Source: Clostridiales bacterium (GTDB lineage: Bacteria; Bacillota; Clostridia; Lachnospirales; Lachnospiraceae). Taken from it: a DNA stretch of 37,525 nucleotides. Made by a program: the position numbers and the translations under genes. The notes below the pieces were generated by a model that saw only the letters and a program-made list of their open reading frames with translations, was not told the origin of the DNA and did no database searches. Shown here piece after piece: positions 8,296 through 27,616 of the stretch; position 1 is the stretch's first letter, and each line of letters starts with the position of its first letter. Where the stretch lies: positions 1 through 37,525 of the forward strand of contig JAQXPY010000130.1 of the NCBI GenBank assembly GCA_029100885.1. Reading direction: 5' to 3'.

Positions 8296-9404
8296 TTGGA
8301 ATTCACGGTATAGTTTTTGCATATCAGAAACGAAATAATCTTCAGGAGCTTGTATCCATGCGTGCATCCGCATCCGTTCCGTTCGGCGGCAGATATCGTG
8401 CTATCGACTTTGCGATATCAAATCTGGTAAACGCCGGAGCGAAGGACGTCGGGGTACTGGTTCAGGAGAGATATCAGAGTCTTCTTGACCATATCGGAAC
8501 CGGAAAGGATTTTGATCTGTCCAAGAAGAGAGGAGGACTGCGTATACTGCCTCCGTTCTCCATCAGAGACGGTCATGGCTCGGATACCTTCCGCGGCAAG
8601 ATGGAGGCCCTCTGCGGCGTCAGGTCATATATTGCGGACATCCGTCAGGAATATGTCGTAATGATGGACGGAGACCTTGTTACAAATCTTCCTCTGCGTC
8701 AGATAGTTGACAACCACATCAAGAGTGATGCGGATATCACGGTGGTCTGCGGAAATGACAGCTTCTATGTGGACAGCGGAACGTATTTCCAGACAGATGA
8801 AACAGGCAGAGTTAATGATGTTCTTTACAACATACATACTCCGAGGGGAAGAAGAGGACTGGAGGTATATATCCTTTCCAAGAAGCTGCTTCTGGAGATA
8901 GTTGATGACTGTCTGTCACATGACAAATACAGCCTGCGCCGCGATGTGCTTCAGGCCAAGAAGGACGAGCTTGTTATAAAGACGTATGTATGGAACGGCT
9001 TTGCCGCACAGGTAAGATCTGTCAAGGAGTATTTCGAGCGCAGCATGCAGCTGCTCAATCCGGCCATCAGAAAAGAACTGTTCTGTGAGGAAAGACCGAT
9101 CAGGGCTAAGAGTGCGGACAAGTCTTCGGCATATCTGGCACCGGGAGGAAGTATTCACAATTCGCTTATTGCCGACGGCTGCAGCGTTGCGGGAACCGTT
9201 GAAAATTCCATTCTGTTCCCGGGCGTAGTAGTTGAAAAGGGTGCGGTTGTCAGAAACAGCGTACTGTTCAAGGAGACCTATGTCGGAGAAAGAAGCGAGA
9301 CTGCATTTGTTATTGCCGATAAGAGAGTATCACTCTCTGCAGGAAGCACCATAATAGGAAGCGCATCATATCCTATTGCCATTGCCAAGGAGAGCAAGAT
9401 CTGA
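8292..9404 (+). CDS. glgD: Glucose-1-phosphate adenylyltransferase, GlgD regulatory subunit
   Basis: A 370-residue GlgC homologue of the Firmicute GlgD type. The fold is kept ([18 protein letters not shown], hexapeptide repeats near residues 290-350). However, the N-terminal GGxGxRL nucleotide loop is replaced by [11 protein letters not shown], so it should be non-catalytic and act by modulating GlgC. The ATGA overlap with glgC indicates translational coupling. A terminator follows about 30 nt after its stop, closing the glgBCD unit. Confidence 0.95.
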
Positions 9405-21090: not shown

Positions 21091-21102
21091 GTTGTTTACA
21101 AC
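21091..21102. promoter_or_regulatory. Palindromic operator 1 (GTTGT-TT-ACAAC)
   Basis: GTTGTTTACAAC is a perfect inverted repeat with a 2-bp centre, of the TTGTnnACAA type bound by FadR/FCD-class GntR regulators. An identical site lies at 21165-21176. The GntR gene at 25707 is the natural candidate to bind both. Confidence 0.7.
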
Positions 21103-21164
21103 TTTTTCTTGAATCATCAAAAAAAATGATGAAAAAAGGCATAAAAACCCTTGCGCTTCGGAAA

Positions 21165-21176
21165 GTTGTTTACAAC
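21165..21176. promoter_or_regulatory. Palindromic operator 2 (GTTGT-TT-ACAAC), next to the -35
   Basis: Identical to the site at 21091-21102. The centres are 74 bp apart, close to seven helical turns, so two bound dimers would face the same side and could loop. The site ends 2 bp before the candidate -35. Confidence 0.72.
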
Positions 21177-21178
21177 CG

Positions 21179-21207
21179 GTAACATTTGTTCGCCGTTTAC
21201 ATATAAT
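21179..21207 (+). promoter_or_regulatory. Candidate promoter of the LarA-like/TRAP cluster
   Basis: GTAACA (21179-21184), a 17-nt spacer and a perfect TATAAT (21202-21207). Transcription would begin near 21213, which supports the TTG start at 21247 and excludes the longer in-frame start at 21151. Confidence 0.6.
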
Positions 21208-21246
21208 TGCCGAAGAGAAAAAAAGGAAAAGGCAGGTGGAATTACA

Positions 21247-22578
21247 TTGAAGATTCCAAAGGTCATAAAAGCTGTTCAGCATTATAAGGAGGTTCCGAGA
21301 GTTGAGGATCCGAGGGGAGAGATCAGCAGTAAGCTGGCTCAGTTCGGTCTTGCAGAAAAGATAAGACCGGGGATGAGGATAGCCATCACAGCCGGAAGCC
21401 GGGGTGTGGACGGAATGGTGGAGGTCATTGCCCAGATCGTTCAGGAGGTCAAGAACTGCGGAGGAGATCCGTTTATCTTTCCTTCGATGGGAAGTCATGC
21501 GGGAGCTACCAGCGAGGGACAGCTCAACATGCTCAGAAGCCTTGGATATACAGATGACGTGATAAAATGCCCTATTCTTTCGGAGATCACACCGGTCTGC
21601 ATAGGAGAGACAGAGCTTGGCACCCCGTGCTATATCGATAAGAACGCATGGGAGGCAGACGGGGTTATCGTTGTCAACCGTATTAAGAAGCACACAGATC
21701 ATAACAATAAGACCGAAAGCGGTCTGCTCAAGATGATGACCATCGGTATGGGCAAGAGGGTCATGGCATCATATGTTCATGCCCAGGGAGTATGGGGACT
21801 GACAAATATCATTCCGGCAAACGGAAAATTTGTCTGCCGCAATCCGGAGGTCAATGTCATATGCGGAGTAGCACTGCTTGAAAATCAGGAGGACAAGCTC
21901 GGCTATCTGGAGGTCGTCAACGGCTGGGACATCCCGGACAGGGAACCGGAGCTCTTCAAGCTGGCAGACAGGCTGTTTCCTCATCTTCCGTTCAGAACCT
22001 GTGATTTCCTCATAATAAGAAGAGGAGGCAAGGAGATAAGCGGAACCGGTGTCGACTGCAACATGATCGGACGATACGGAGTATGGGGACTGTATGAGCC
22101 GGAGAAGCTGTTTGCCGCAGGGGAAAACGAGGATTTCAGAGGAGATCCTCTTATCGACAAGATAGCTCTGCTGGATCTGACGGAGATAAGCCACGGCAAT
22201 GCTATCGGAGTCGGACAGGTAGACCTTATTACAAAGAAATACTACGACAAGATAGATTTCAATGCCACATATACAAACGGTCTTACTACGACCTTCCTGC
22301 AGAAGATCAAGATACCGTATGTTGCACCTACGGATAAGGATGCGATACAGACAGGAATGAACTGCCTGAACGGACTGATCAGACTGGAAGGAAAGAAGAA
22401 TGACGATACGGTGAAGGTATGTGTCATTGACAGCACTCTTCACGAAGGAAAGTTCCTTGTTTCAAAGGGTCTTTACGATGAGCTTAAGAAGAGGGATGAT
22501 TTTGAGTTTATCGGAGACTTTGAGGAGCTTGAATTTGATAAAGACGGCAATCTGCTCAGCAATCCGCTGAAGGACTGA
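21247..22578 (+). CDS. LarA-like nickel-pincer-nucleotide-dependent isomerase (DUF2088 family)
   Basis: A 443-residue homologue of lactate racemase LarA, an enzyme class that racemises or epimerises 2-hydroxy acids by hydride transfer with a nickel-pincer cofactor. H84 (GSHAGAT), H152 and K162 in KKHTDHNNKTESGLLKM, and H178 (YVHAQG) fall at spacings close to the catalytic and nickel-binding H108/H174/K184/H200 of LarA as I recall them. The exact substrate is unknown; related enzymes act on lactate, malate, gluconate and others. The start is the TTG at 21247, with AGGTGG 7 nt before it. No larB/larC/larE cofactor genes are in the window, so the cofactor must be made elsewhere. It heads the TRAP cluster and lies just downstream of the operator pair. 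Confidence 0.8.
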   Translation: MKIPKVIKAVQHYKEVPRVEDPRGEISSKLAQFGLAEKIRPGMRIAITAGSRGVDGMVEVIAQIVQEVKNCGGDPFIFPSMGSHAGATSEGQLNMLRSLGYTDDVIKCPILSEITPVCIGETELGTPCYIDKNAWEADGVIVVNRIKKHTDHNNKTESGLLKMMTIGMGKRVMASYVHAQGVWGLTNIIPANGKFVCRNPEVNVICGVALLENQEDKLGYLEVVNGWDIPDREPELFKLADRLFPHLPFRTCDFLIIRRGGKEISGTGVDCNMIGRYGVWGLYEPEKLFAAGENEDFRGDPLIDKIALLDLTEISHGNAIGVGQVDLITKKYYDKIDFNATYTNGLTTTFLQKIKIPYVAPTDKDAIQTGMNCLNGLIRLEGKKNDDTVKVCVIDSTLHEGKFLVSKGLYDELKKRDDFEFIGDFEELEFDKDGNLLSNPLKD

Positions 22579-22694
22579 TACCGGCACTAACGGCGGTATT
22601 CGTTCTGAAGTACCGTGCTGTTAAAAGGTTTATGGGTAAGCAGGCAGATCCCTACCCGGGGTCTGTTAAGCAATATATTAATCAGGAGGGAAAA

Positions 22695-23771
22695 ATGAAA
22701 AAGAGAATTTTTGCAGGCATCATGGCTGCTGCCATGGTTGCATCACTGACTGCATGCGGCGGCGGCTCATCCAGCACAGCTTCAACAACAGCTGCTCCGG
22801 CAGAGACAAAGGCTGAGGCTGCAGCAGAGACAGAGGCTCCGGCAGAGTCTGCTGATCAGGTGGTTACACTTAAGCTCGGACATATCCAGAACGAGCAGGA
22901 TATCTGGCATCTTTCGGCAGAGGTTCTTGCTGAGAAGGCTAAGGAGTATTCAAACGGAACTATCAATATCGAGATCTATCCTAACTCCACACTCGGCGGA
23001 GACCGTGACCTGGCAGAGGGAATGCAGATGGGTACTGTAGATATGGCTCTTATCGCAGGTGTTCTTTCAAACTTCGATGAGTCTATCTCACTCCTTGAGA
23101 TCCCTTATCTCTTCCACAGCAACGAAGAGTTCGAGAAGATCGTTTACGGACCTTGCGGAGAAGAGATCGCTGCAAACGTACTTGAGAATTCAGGCATCAA
23201 GATCCTTGATTGGTGGGAGAGAGGTCCTCGTCTCATTACATCAAGCAGACCTATCAACAGCGTTGAGGATATGAAGGGTCTTAAGATCCGTCTTCCTGAG
23301 ATCAAGGCAATGCAGGAGGTATTCACAGCATGGGGTGCAGCTCCTACAACAATGAGCTGGTCTGAGGTTTATCCAAGCCTTCAGCAGGGCGTTATCGAGG
23401 CTCAGGAGAACCCTATTCCGTTCTTCTACTCAGGCTCGATCTTCGAGGTTAACAAGTACATCGCTAACACAGAGCATAAGTATGAGTATGTATGCATCAC
23501 AATTGCCGGCGATTCCTGGGACAAGCTGAGCGCAGCACAGCAGGAAGCTCTTATGAAGGCAAGCGCAGAGGCTACAGAGTATCACAACAGCCATGTAAGC
23601 GATATCGCTGCTGAGGATCTCAAGGACATGGTAGACAACCATGGCGTAACAGTTACAGATCCTGATACAACAGGCTTCATCGCAATAGCTGAGGAAGTTG
23701 CTCCTAAGTATGCAGAGAGCATCGGATATCTTGATCTCTACAACAAGATTCAGGCTGAATTAGGCCGTTAA
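22695..23771 (+). CDS. dctP: TRAP transporter substrate-binding lipoprotein (DctP family)
   Basis: The extracytoplasmic receptor of a TRAP carboxylate importer. Translation starts at ATG 22695, with AGGAGGG 5 nt upstream, not at the earlier in-frame ATG 22632. The first 20 residues are a lipoprotein signal ending in the lipobox LTAC, with C21 to be lipidated. An Ala/Glu/Thr-rich linker follows to about residue 55. The DctP core has GLKIRLPEIKAMQEVFTAWGAAPTTM and VYPSLQQGVIEAQENP; the Arg in KIRLP usually binds the substrate carboxylate. The ligand is therefore probably a hydroxy or sugar acid (inference from neighbours). Codon use looks strongly biased, which suggests high expression. A hairpin separates it from dctQ. 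Confidence 0.95.
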   Translation: MKKRIFAGIMAAAMVASLTACGGGSSSTASTTAAPAETKAEAAAETEAPAESADQVVTLKLGHIQNEQDIWHLSAEVLAEKAKEYSNGTINIEIYPNSTLGGDRDLAEGMQMGTVDMALIAGVLSNFDESISLLEIPYLFHSNEEFEKIVYGPCGEEIAANVLENSGIKILDWWERGPRLITSSRPINSVEDMKGLKIRLPEIKAMQEVFTAWGAAPTTMSWSEVYPSLQQGVIEAQENPIPFFYSGSIFEVNKYIANTEHKYEYVCITIAGDSWDKLSAAQQEALMKASAEATEYHNSHVSDIAAEDLKDMVDNHGVTVTDPDTTGFIAIAEEVAPKYAESIGYLDLYNKIQAELGR

Positions 23772-23886: not shown

Positions 23887-24363
23887 ATGAAAAAAGTTGA
23901 AGGAGCTATTCTGAAGGTATTAGGATGGTTTATGGCGCTGCTGATATTTGCCATGATGGTGGATATTTTCGCTGCGGTACTGTCAAGATACATTTTCCGT
24001 TTCTCTATTCCGTTTGCCGAGGAGCTGGGAAGGTATCTGTTTGTATGGATCACCTTTACAGGAATGGCAAGATGTGTAGCGGACGAAAAGCACGTAGCTT
24101 TGGATCTTATTTCACATGTTCTTAAGGGGCCTGTCAAGAAGGGCTGGAAGCTGGCTGTATATGCCATTACAGCATTTTTCTTTGCGGCTCTTACACGCTC
24201 GGGCTATGCTCTCTGCCTGGTTGGACTTAAGCAGAAGAGCCCGACCATGAGGATTCCGATGCAGTATATGTATATGATAATACCTATCTGCGGAGTTCTC
24301 AGTCTGTTCTTTATTGTGATGAGAGTTATTGATCTTTTGAGAAAGGAGAATGAGGAATCATGA
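23887..24363 (+). CDS. dctQ: TRAP transporter small membrane subunit (DctQ family)
   Basis: A 158-residue protein with four predicted hydrophobic segments: near 12-32, 46-63 with the conserved FAEELGRYLFVWITFTG motif, 87-105 and 130-150. This is the fold of the small TRAP subunit. The ATG follows GTCAGGAGGTTCTTA. It overlaps dctM by 4 nt (ATGA), so the two membrane subunits are co-translated. Confidence 0.94.
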   Translation: MKKVEGAILKVLGWFMALLIFAMMVDIFAAVLSRYIFRFSIPFAEELGRYLFVWITFTGMARCVADEKHVALDLISHVLKGPVKKGWKLAVYAITAFFFAALTRSGYALCLVGLKQKSPTMRIPMQYMYMIIPICGVLSLFFIVMRVIDLLRKENEES

Positions 24364-25622
24364 TAGGCATCTTATTATTCACAATATTCTTGATTTTCCT
24401 TTTCTTCGGTCTTCCTGTAGGCTTTGCCCTCGGTATCGCAAGCCTTGGAGGTATCGCATACGGAAGCTACCCTATAAGCGTTATGGCACAGCGGTTCTTC
24501 ACGGCTGTTGACTCATTCCCGCTTATGGCTATTCCGCTTTTCATGCTGGCCGGAGCTCTTATGAGTCACGGAGGCATTACAAAGAGAATTATTGACTTCG
24601 CGCTCTGCTTTGTAGGTCATATCAAGGGCGGCCTTGCAATGGTAGTGGCGATCACAGGTATCATCATGGGAGGTATTTCCGGTTCGGGAGTTGCCGATGC
24701 AGCGGCTATCGGTGCGATCATGGTTCCGGAGATGAGCAAGAGAAAATATGACAGAGCCTTTTCGGGTGCGCTTTGTGCATGCTGCGGCTCTATCGGACTC
24801 ATCATTCCTCCGTCAATTGCCATCATTATTTTTGCATGTACAGCCAATGTATCGATCGGTGACCTGTTTATGGCAGCATATGCTCCGGGCATCTGCATCG
24901 GTCTGGGCTTCCTTTTATACTGCTATATCATCGCCAGGATCAAGAATTATCCTAATGAGGAAAAGATCCAGGCAAAAGAAACGATCAGAAGGTTCAAGGA
25001 TGCTATCTGGGCGCTGATCATGCCGCTGATCATCGTAGTCGGCATCAGAGGCGGTATTTTCACCGCTACAGAGGGAGGAGCCGTTATATCGATATACGGT
25101 CTTCTTGTCGGCATGTTCATATACAAGGATATCAAGATAAAGGATCTTCCGGCTATCCTGCTGGAGGCAGCAGAGAGCACAGCTACTATCGGAACGATCA
25201 TCTGTGCAACTACTCTTTTCAGCTGGCTGCTTACCAGTGAGCAGATTCCGGCCAAGATCACAACATGGCTTATCAGCCTTACGGACAATAAGTTCCTGCT
25301 GCTTTTCCTTATAAATGTCCTGCTGCTTATTACAGGTATGTTTATCGACAGCGGCCCGGCGATCATGCTTCTGGCGCCTATCCTGTGCCCGGTAGCCACA
25401 TCTCTCGGTGTGAATCTTGTTCAGTTCGGTCTTGTGATGGTAATGAACCTTACTATCGGACTTCTTACTCCTCCGGTAGGAACGGCTATGTATGTAGGCT
25501 CTAATGTCTCAGGTGTTCCGATCAAGGACATTAGCCGAGCCTTGCTTCCGTTTATAGGAATCATGTTCGCGGCTCTTATGCTTGTGACATATGTTCCTGC
25601 ATTCACAAGCTGGGCTTATTGA
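24360..25622 (+). CDS. dctM: TRAP transporter large membrane subunit (DctM family)
   Basis: A 420-residue, strongly hydrophobic protein of the DctM ion-coupled permease type, with about eleven or twelve membrane segments. Family motifs are seen: FPLMAIPLFMLAGALMSHGG, ISGSGVADAAAIGAIMVPEM, IIPPSIAIIIF, FTATEGGAV, and NLTIGLLTPPVGTAMYV. With dctP and dctQ it completes a sodium-driven TRAP importer. It is followed at once by a large hairpin and then the regulator gene. Confidence 0.96.
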   Translation: MIGILLFTIFLIFLFFGLPVGFALGIASLGGIAYGSYPISVMAQRFFTAVDSFPLMAIPLFMLAGALMSHGGITKRIIDFALCFVGHIKGGLAMVVAITGIIMGGISGSGVADAAAIGAIMVPEMSKRKYDRAFSGALCACCGSIGLIIPPSIAIIIFACTANVSIGDLFMAAYAPGICIGLGFLLYCYIIARIKNYPNEEKIQAKETIRRFKDAIWALIMPLIIVVGIRGGIFTATEGGAVISIYGLLVGMFIYKDIKIKDLPAILLEAAESTATIGTIICATTLFSWLLTSEQIPAKITTWLISLTDNKFLLLFLINVLLLITGMFIDSGPAIMLLAPILCPVATSLGVNLVQFGLVMVMNLTIGLLTPPVGTAMYVGSNVSGVPIKDISRALLPFIGIMFAALMLVTYVPAFTSWAY

Positions 25623-25635
25623 TAACAGTGCTTTA

Positions 25636-25689
25636 TTTTAGGGCTGAGCCTTAAGGGTAAATATGATCCTTAAAGCCTCAGCCCTAAAA
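25636..25689. other. Large hairpin between dctM and gntR, no T tract
   Basis: A perfect 13-bp outer stem (25636-25648 with 25677-25689, TTTTAGGGCTGAG) is extended by an inner CTTAAGG/CCTTAA stem. Neither strand has a T run after the stem, apart from the T/A ends of the arms themselves. It could be a terminator whose U run is part of the stem (bidirectional A-T ended), an mRNA end protector, or a regulatory fold just upstream of the gntR ribosome site. Confidence 0.65.
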
Positions 25690-25706: not shown

Positions 25707-26483
25707 ATGGATAACAAGGAAGAACGCTACGGACTGATACTTGATAAGGTCATCAGCATGATCTATGACTTGAATATCAGAAGCGGAGACAAGATGTTTT
25801 CCGAAAACAGGCTGGCAAAAGCACTAAATGTTTCGAGAGCAAATGTCAGAGAGATATACAGCGCATTGAATATCCTCGGCATTCTTGAGAGCAGAAGGGG
25901 AGAAGGGACATTTTTCAGAGGTGCGGACAACAGTATTATCTTCAAGATACTTATGCTCGTTATATATGATGATTCGGCTGACGTCAGCGAGATCATGGAG
26001 GTAAGAAAGATCATTGAGATAGGAATCGCCGAGAAGGCAGCTGTAAACAGAAGTCAGGAGGATGTCAGAAAGCTTAAGAAATGTATAAACGACATGGAAA
26101 ACTGCTCTGACGGAAACCGGCTCAGCGAACTGGACAATGAGCTGCATTCTATTATAGGCAGAGCCTGCGGAAACACGCTTCTGTCGAATATGTCCGAGAT
26201 CATTTCCAGCCTTGTCATCAGATCGATCAGGGAACACTGGAACTATATTCTGTCGGATAAGAAAAGAGATACAAAGCAGATCACCTTTGAACAGCACAAG
26301 GAGCTGGCGGAAGCAATAATTCACAAAAAGCCGTACATTGCAAGAGTTGTTGCGCAGGAGCACCTTGAGTTCGTTTCTAACAGTCTGGAAAGGTATAAAA
26401 AGGAGTATTCCGAGCATCTGTTGTTGATATCCGATTCAAAAGATGAGAGGCCAAGGTTAAAATACCGGCAGTATCATTCCTGA
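25707..26483 (+). CDS. GntR-family transcriptional regulator, FadR/FCD subfamily
   Basis: A 258-residue DNA-binding regulator. The N-terminal winged helix-turn-helix is seen in residues ~8-70 (IRSGDKMFSENRLAKALNVSRANVREIYSAL ... RRGEGTFF). The C-terminal FCD helical domain (~80-230) keeps a likely metal/ligand set: D and H in LDNELHSIIG, H in EQHKELAEAI, and H in AQEHLEFV. Such proteins sense organic acids or sugar acids. The ribosome site is AGAGGA. Its place inside the TRAP cluster and the two GTTGTTTACAAC sites before the first gene make it the likely local regulator. The ~25-residue C-terminal extension after the FCD domain is not explained. Confidence 0.92.
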   Translation: MDNKEERYGLILDKVISMIYDLNIRSGDKMFSENRLAKALNVSRANVREIYSALNILGILESRRGEGTFFRGADNSIIFKILMLVIYDDSADVSEIMEVRKIIEIGIAEKAAVNRSQEDVRKLKKCINDMENCSDGNRLSELDNELHSIIGRACGNTLLSNMSEIISSLVIRSIREHWNYILSDKKRDTKQITFEQHKELAEAIIHKKPYIARVVAQEHLEFVSNSLERYKKEYSEHLLLISDSKDERPRLKYRQYHS

Positions 26484-26528: not shown

Positions 26529-26557
26529 TTGACAAAAAGTTGTCAGAATAATAAAAT
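26529..26557 (+). promoter_or_regulatory. Strong candidate promoter of the ketopantoate-reductase-like gene
   Basis: A perfect TTGACA (26529-26534), 17-nt spacer and TAAAAT (26552-26557). A small inverted repeat TGACAA-AAAG-TTGTCA (26530-26545) overlaps the -35, a possible operator. It shows that the reductase gene can be read independently of the TRAP operon. Confidence 0.65.
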
Positions 26558-26674: not shown

Positions 26675-27616
26675 ATGAAGATTACTATGATGGGCGCCGG
26701 CGCCATGGGAGGCATGATCGGCGGCAGACTTGCAGCGGCAGGCAACGACGTATGGCTTGTTGATACCTGGGCGGAGCATGTTGACAGTATGAAGCAGAAT
26801 GGTCTCATTCTTGATACCAGAGAGGGAAGACAGATACTTAAGGTCAATGCTACGACAAATGTTTCAGAGGTCTATGAAGCCGACGGCTATATGGAGCTTG
26901 TAATAATCTTTGTCAATACCAACTTCACGGATCAGATCACAAGGGATGCTCTGGCAGTGATAGGACCGGACACATATGTGCTGACGGTTCAGAACGGTGT
27001 AGGAAATGCCGATATCATTGCAAGATATGTTAAGAAGGACAGAATCATCCTCGGAACAACTCTTGCTGCGGGTGTCGTTGAGGGACCGGGACATGTAAGA
27101 GATTCCGGAACAAACACATTTACACAGATAATGCCTATGGAGGGACCGGTAACGCCGGTGGTGGAGAAGATCTGCGCCACTTTGAGCGACGCCGGACTTC
27201 AGACTGAGGCAACACCTGAAGCCGAGACAGCCATCTGGCGCAAGCTGTGCGTCAACTGCTGCACCTGCGGCATCGGAACAGTAACAAGACTTACCTGCGG
27301 ACAGGTCTGTGAAGAGCCGGACGGTGCTCCGCTGGTTCGTGAGATCATCAGAGAGGTATGCGCCGTTGCCAACGCAAAGGGGCTTAAGCTTGATTACGAG
27401 ACGGAGGTCAGTCATTTCTTTGAGGTGTATACACCGAGTACCCATTATGCGTCAATGGTTCAGAATGCAAAGAAGCATATCAGGACCGAGGCGGAGACGA
27501 TTATGGGAGCGGTAGTGCATGAAGGAGAGAGACTGGGAATTCCTGTTCCGTACAACACTACTATCTATCATCTTGTGAGAATGATCCAGGATCATTACGA
27601 GGATCAGATGTATTGA
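26675..27616 (+). CDS. 2-dehydropantoate 2-reductase family oxidoreductase (ApbA/PanE-like)
   Basis: A 313-residue NADP-type dehydrogenase. Motifs: GAGAMGGMIGGRL (residues 7-19, Rossmann loop), VQNGVGN, ETAIWRKLCVNCC with the likely catalytic K190, and a C-terminal TEAETIMGAVVHEGERLGIPVPYNTTIY helix pair. True PanE reduces 2-dehydropantoate to pantoate. No panB or panC is nearby, and many homologues act on other 2-keto/2-hydroxy acids, so a role in the catabolic island is more likely (inference). GGGGGTATATCA lies before the ATG. An unusual cluster of four Cys falls in residues ~192-209 (CVNCCTCG). It has its own strong promoter. Confidence 0.88.
   Translation: MKITMMGAGAMGGMIGGRLAAAGNDVWLVDTWAEHVDSMKQNGLILDTREGRQILKVNATTNVSEVYEADGYMELVIIFVNTNFTDQITRDALAVIGPDTYVLTVQNGVGNADIIARYVKKDRIILGTTLAAGVVEGPGHVRDSGTNTFTQIMPMEGPVTPVVEKICATLSDAGLQTEATPEAETAIWRKLCVNCCTCGIGTVTRLTCGQVCEEPDGAPLVREIIREVCAVANAKGLKLDYETEVSHFFEVYTPSTHYASMVQNAKKHIRTEAETIMGAVVHEGERLGIPVPYNTTIYHLVRMIQDHYEDQMY

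Follow-up and report, generated by a model that had tools for sequence, protein, structure and literature searches.

Paired putative operators of a GntR/FCD regulator upstream of a larA–dctPQM operon in gut Lachnospirales

In Escherichia coli, the FCD-type regulator LldR is encoded within its own operon, lldPRD, together with genes for hydroxy-acid uptake and metabolism, and two operators are present. The locus analysed here shares all of these features. However, the LldR box is composed of TGGT half-sites around a 3-nt centre, whereas the operators of our locus are composed of TTGT half-sites around a 2-nt centre. The work of Aguilera in 2008 is said to have placed one lldPRD operator downstream of the transcription start, while both operators of our locus lie upstream. 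E. coli FadR, which has fatty acyl-CoA as its ligand and TGGTnnnACCA as its operator, acts at fabA as an activator from a single site adjoining the −35 element. The regulator described here resembles FadR at fabA in being of the GntR/FadR type and in having a site that adjoins −35, but differs in having two sites of the form TTGT-nn-ACAA.

A DNA loop and a dual repressor/activator role have been proposed for LldR (PMC5412874; PMC10272880), but no repression by looping was obtained when the LldR sites of E. coli were placed in a synthetic lacUV5 assay (PMC7804116), and published results disagree on both looping and activation. For Atu1419, an FCD repressor of the VanR group in Agrobacterium fabrum, a DNA loop between palindromes 190 bp apart was observed by electron microscopy (PMC7797058). 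Our system has the FCD fold and the two palindromes in common with Atu1419; the tetramer and the repression at 190 bp were established by experiment for Atu1419, whereas the 74–85 bp reported here are read from sequence alone. Looping of DNA by FCD proteins on two palindromes is already known, and the comparative evidence presented here is unusually clean. A GT-nn-AC spacing like that of our sites occurs in the UxuR, GntR, HypR, MdcY and PrpR groups, a likeness in spacing alone, and the survey of the FadR subfamily that described it included only one regulator from Clostridia (PMC4494728).

FCD regulons are barely described in gut Lachnospirales. Here we describe a predicted, testable regulator–operator pair for a hydroxy-acid uptake/isomerase operon of these bacteria, with natural variants of 74, 75, 76 and 85 bp and one single-site promoter that bear on looping and activation by FCD proteins. 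The sequence comparison suggests that the operator pair is probably part of an acid-sensing genetic switch, and its nearly fixed spacing in gut bacteria with this regulator gene marks the sites as the putative paired docking site of that regulator.

The operator pair and its conservation

The window, the whole 37,525-nucleotide stretch of DNA that was analysed, contains two exact copies of GTTGTTTACAAC (Table 1), as proposed in a sequence-only reading of this DNA. Each copy is formed by perfect 5-bp arms, GTTGT-TT-ACAAC. The start-to-start distance of 74 bp corresponds to 7.05 turns at 10.5 bp per turn; the two sites are in phase, in agreement with the proposed spacing of nearly seven helical turns. 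When scored with a leave-one-out site matrix, built from the other loci only, the distal operator reached 18.7 bits, with P about 0.001 relative to shuffles.

Orthologs of the regulator were detected in nine other genomes, and those that were aligned are 44–63% identical to the window protein. The ortholog loci were found by three routes and number ten with the window, the others being L084, L085, L086, L087, L088, L055 (identical to L089), L056 (identical to L090), L125 and L126. The upstream region is missing from L084, L087 and L056 because these loci begin inside the operon. Among the seven readable operon starts, including the window, the proximal site was present in all seven and the pair in six; for the relatives with a sequenced operon start, the corresponding numbers were 6/6 and 5/6. 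Conservation of the sites in relatives, which had been set as the test that could refute the proposal, was thus observed in every ortholog with a sequenced operon start. At each of the six paired loci, the operators scored highest and second highest within 300 bp upstream (P 0.001–0.003 against dinucleotide shuffles). In the relatives dctP comes first and larA follows dctM, whereas larA comes first in the window. Since the sites precede the first gene despite this difference in gene order, the pair keeps its place at the head of the operon. No ortholog outside the order was found in 391 genomes of the class at E 1e-50; a match in genome G571 was rejected as a distant relative without the upstream pair.

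Table 1. Coordinates of the window features and operators of the orthologous loci
Feature	Position	Strand	Remarks
Distal operator GTTGTTTACAAC	21091–21102	.	Centre about −117.5 from inferred transcription start
Spacer, 62 bp	21103–21164	.	A-tracts every about 11–13 bp; length conserved, sequence little conserved
Proximal operator GTTGTTTACAAC	21165–21176	.	Centre about −43.5; counterpart in 6/6 readable relatives
−35 hexamer GTAACA	21179–21184	+	4/6; begins 2 bp past proximal operator
−10 hexamer TATAAT	21202–21207	+	25 bp past operator; position conserved in 7/7 promoters
larA-like gene, TTG start	21247–22578	+	NF052515 412.7 bits, cut-off 400
dctP, TRAP transporter solute-binding protein	22632–23771	+	
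dctQ, TRAP small permease	23887–24363	+	
dctM, TRAP large permease	24360–25622	+	
Strong hairpin	25636–25689	+	−29.4 kcal/mol; between dctM and regulator gene
GntR/FCD regulator	25707–26483	+	PF00392 and PF07729 above cut-off; inferred binder of both operators
Separate near-consensus promoter TTGACA-17-TAAAAT	26529–26557	+	Serves ketopantoate-reductase-like gene at 26675
Different, shorter FCD regulator	L083:1970–2632	−	Divergent from adjoining larA, L083:2971–4299
Racemase-family operon continuation	L055:10473–14820, L084:4743–5402, L085:10732–11382, L126:2839–3525, L056:3921–4607		
Operators, window	distal GTTGTTTACAAC / proximal GTTGTTTACAAC		74 bp
Operators, L085	distal GTTGTTAACAAG / proximal GTTGTTAACAAC		75 bp
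Operators, L086	distal ATTGTCAACAAG / proximal GTTGTTAACAAC		75 bp
Operators, L088	distal CTTGTAAACAAG / proximal GCTGTTTACAAC		74 bp
Operators, L126	distal GTTGTTTACAAC / proximal GTTGTTAACAAG		76 bp
Operators, L125	distal CTTGTTCACAAC / proximal GTTGTAAACAAG		85 bp
Operator, L055	proximal only, GTTGTTAACAAC		Distal site not detectable

Promoter geometry and the sign of control

The proximal operator directly precedes the −35 hexamer of a promoter, GTAACA-17-bp spacer-TATAAT, as had been noted from the sequence. About 0.9 promoters scoring as well as this one are expected per shuffled 400-bp region, and the promoter assignment therefore rests on conservation, not on score. A −10-like hexamer (TATAAT, TATTAT, TATTAT, TAAAAT, TATAAT, TAAAAT and TATTCT) starts 25 or 26 bp past the proximal operator in each of the seven promoters. 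The summed −10 match was 36/42, while the best of 5000 shuffles reached 31. The −35 hexamers at 17-bp spacing are usually poor, with one to four of six consensus matches; four matches were found in two of the seven promoters, including that of the window. The distance from operator to start codon ranges from about 70 to 188 bp and is not conserved. With the −10 element at 25–26 bp and the inferred transcription start taken as 7 bp after it, which would put that of the window near 21214, the centres of the operators fall near −43 and −117. Relative to this inferred start, the promoters show the features of class II activation, that is, an operator centre near −41.5, a fixed distance to −10 and a poor −35.

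The sequences themselves show the sites, how they are conserved and spaced, the −10 geometry and the co-occurrence with the regulator. The model that we infer from them, in its binding, loop, ligand and positive sign alike, is as follows. The GntR/FCD regulator encoded at 25707–26483 would bind the two sites as paired operators and so regulate its own expression. One dimer would occupy the site at about −43, where it abuts the −35 region and keeps a constant distance to −10. A second dimer would bind on that same DNA face, seven turns of the helix further upstream, and the two would touch across a short loop rich in A-tracts. The complex would be switched by a carboxylate ligand, which is probably the hydroxy acid that the TRAP transporter imports and the LarA-like enzyme isomerises, and the proximal dimer would then recruit RNA polymerase to the weak −35 promoter, turning on larA-dctPQM and the regulator gene. 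Taken as a whole, this model of a paired, autoregulatory, looped and ligand-switched activator has, in our estimate, a chance barely above even. More tentatively, and with a chance that falls short of even, the orthologs may represent an undescribed Lachnospirales group of FCD proteins, namely ligand-switched, loop-forming class II activators with operators at about −43 and −117, a spacing that changes by whole turns only, and control over TRAP uptake and nickel-pincer isomerisation of a hydroxy acid.

Alternatively, the same regulator and operators could form a ligand-released repressor, in which looped dimers or a tetramer block the polymerase at −35. Many FCD regulators of catabolic operons act as repressors, and an operator that adjoins −35, with its centre at −43, can also repress. 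Precedents are provided by Atu1419, an FCD protein whose tetramer loops two palindromes and represses (PMC7797058), and by the LldR model, in which the apo protein on both operators sequesters the promoter (PMC5412874). Such repression is a reading that we consider quite possible, though less likely than activation, given that the core promoter lies downstream of both operators and that a simple blocker would need neither the fixed 25–26 bp to −10 in seven promoters nor their mostly poor −35 elements. Because a fixed −10 distance and a poor −35 are what contact with RNA polymerase requires, we modestly favour activation; on these sequence features, an activator that is switched by a ligand and able to loop is slightly preferred to a simple repressor. 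The sequence-only reading had predicted ligand-dependent induction in a sense that implied de-repression. The operator at about −43, its fixed 25–26 bp to −10 and the poor −35 fit activation at least as well.

Spacing, assignment of the binder and recurrence of the motif

The spacings, including that of the window, are 74, 74, 75, 75, 76 and 85 bp and agree in helical phase (R = 0.92 at 10.5 bp), with the qualification that they come from related, non-independent loci. The 85-bp spacing of L125 is 9–11 bp longer than the rest, close to one helical turn; it is the only clear independent change in length, because the five near-equal spacings may partly reflect descent. The computed curvature of the spacer exceeded the mean of the shuffles at each of the six paired loci and is used here as a hint, since it was singly significant in only one of them, L126. 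These properties make a loop between two bound dimers plausible. The pair is not strictly required, because L055 has no detectable distal site. This single-site ortholog would also suit two independent operators, on which bound dimers make no contact and whose spacing was inherited and not selected, as would the distal scores, which are lower than the proximal scores in several loci, and the weak residual similarity among some spacers (z up to 3.2). We regard such independence as unlikely, since the spacers otherwise align poorly between loci while their length is conserved, and since the sole large change in length is near a helical turn.

The window regulator carries an N-terminal GntR winged helix (PF00392, 38 bits, cut-off 27) and a C-terminal FCD domain (PF07729, 75.4 bits, cut-off 24.3), but falls below the cut-off of the LldR equivalog NF007741 of NCBIfam (112.8 versus 311 bits). 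Its AlphaFold model (mean pLDDT 79.6) confirms the predicted fold only. Compared with FCD structures, the model gave a Foldseek probability of 1.00 and a low overall TM-score, the latter suggesting that the domains are arranged differently in the model. Residues D143, H147, H197 and H219, which we assign to the metal site of the FCD domain (one Asp, three His), are invariant in eight orthologs. In the consensus of the FadR subfamily, TKGT/ACMA, GT and AC are separated by 3 nt, or by 2 nt in some groups (PMC4494728). TTGT-nn-ACAA was found in 12 of the 13 sites, the remaining one having CTGT; this matches the FadR-subfamily palindrome with a 2-nt centre and bears out the original description of the sites as FadR-type (GntR/FCD) operators. 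Within the subfamily, Arg at position 28 of the helix–turn–helix domain accompanies TGGT half-sites, and Gly at position 59, as in the regulator here, would favour G/C (PMC4494728). Position 28, which corresponds to residue 34 of the window regulator in an alignment to E. coli FadR, is Asn in six of eight orthologs and Thr or Ile in the other two. Asn at this position is consistent with TTGT half-sites, short of proof.

The binder had been proposed to be the FadR-type protein encoded inside the cluster. Because the sites co-occur with the ortholog group and vanish where the ortholog is replaced, the 25707–26483 protein is a well-supported candidate for binding both operators. The replacement was observed in genome G010 (locus L083), which lacks the FCD ortholog although its LarA is 88% identical and dctPQM follow in identical order. 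The FCD regulator present instead (Table 1) aligns with the window protein over a single weak stretch at 26% identity. No operator was detected upstream of the larA gene of L083, the best score there being 0.6 bits compared with 14–21 bits for true proximal sites. This one regulator swap is a single event, though it goes in the predicted direction. The genome of the window encodes six further FCD proteins, to any of which the sites might belong, but no matching site pair was found near these six genes, which argues against another FCD protein, and the sites precede the operon of the ortholog group itself in every testable case. Together with the loss of the sites at L083, this leaves a different regulator as a very improbable owner.

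With up to two mismatches, the window contains seven matches to the operator, of which two are the identical sites counted on the opposite strand, against 1.35 expected; seven were reached in none of 100 shuffles. The genome search, which had been suggested for further sites, yielded four exact copies of the 12-mer GTTGTTTACAAC in the 1.96-Mb draft genome, of which the window pair are the only intergenic ones. The other two sit within open frames, one rnpA-like and one long. The pattern TTGTTWACAA occurred 12 times genome-wide, compared with 10 for the reversed-pattern control, again with only the two window sites in intergenic DNA. In view of this lack of enrichment and of the intragenic position of all remaining exact copies, a wider regulon in this genome was rejected. 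Two intergenic copies with one mismatch (C139:22492 and C146:12461) had no link to anything found. A TTGTTWACAA pair spaced 55–75 bp apart was present in two of 397 genomes of the family, counting that of the window. Searching the literature with the exact motif brought up only unrelated work among the matches listed. Although isolated exact 12-mers do turn up within genes, a repeat by chance has a negligible probability and is ruled out by the conservation of the sites in relatives, with nearly fixed spacing across genera and families.

Extent of control and neighbouring genes

The larA-like product passes the equivalog cut-off for the nickel-pincer cofactor-dependent isomerases of group 22 (NCBIfam NF052515), and the ligand of the regulator would indicate the substrate of these enzymes. 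The TTG start of the gene (21247–21249) aligns with the ATG of the 88% identical relative in L083. No terminator was called between dctM and the regulator gene, the hairpin at this position being without a T run; the hairpin may lower expression of the regulator gene.

Past the regulator gene lie a ketopantoate-reductase-like gene and then a dihydroxy-acid-dehydratase-like gene. The promoter that serves the former (Table 1) has 11/12 consensus matches and is without a GTTGTTTACAAC site, and a search of the window found no operator upstream of either the reductase or the dehydratase gene. Because the reductase gene has its own promoter without an operator, the most likely regulon is larA-dctPQM-regulator, and control probably spans this unit and not the entire island. 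The earlier expectation that the whole cluster is induced is thus probably too broad with respect to the reductase and dehydratase genes. The separate promoter overlaps an inverted repeat, TGACAAAAAGTTGTCA (26530–26545), at which a different regulator may control these two genes.

In relatives, the operon is extended by a racemase-family gene (Asp/Glu/hydantoin) that did not appear in the cluster of the window. A dihydroxy-acid dehydratase and an auxin-efflux-type transporter are encoded in L055 as well, and the window has both of them further downstream. L126 carries a third site, GTTGTTAACAAT (complement of 9074–9085), about 50 bp before a divergent gene (L126:9137–10186, plus strand) that encodes 349 aa with no Pfam match and may be another member of the regulon there. 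Finally, two more LarA-like paralogs with 35–37% identity are encoded in the genome of the window (G000:C26:8158–9387 and G000:C45:4913–6142), and genomes of the genus contain up to seven LarA-like matches.
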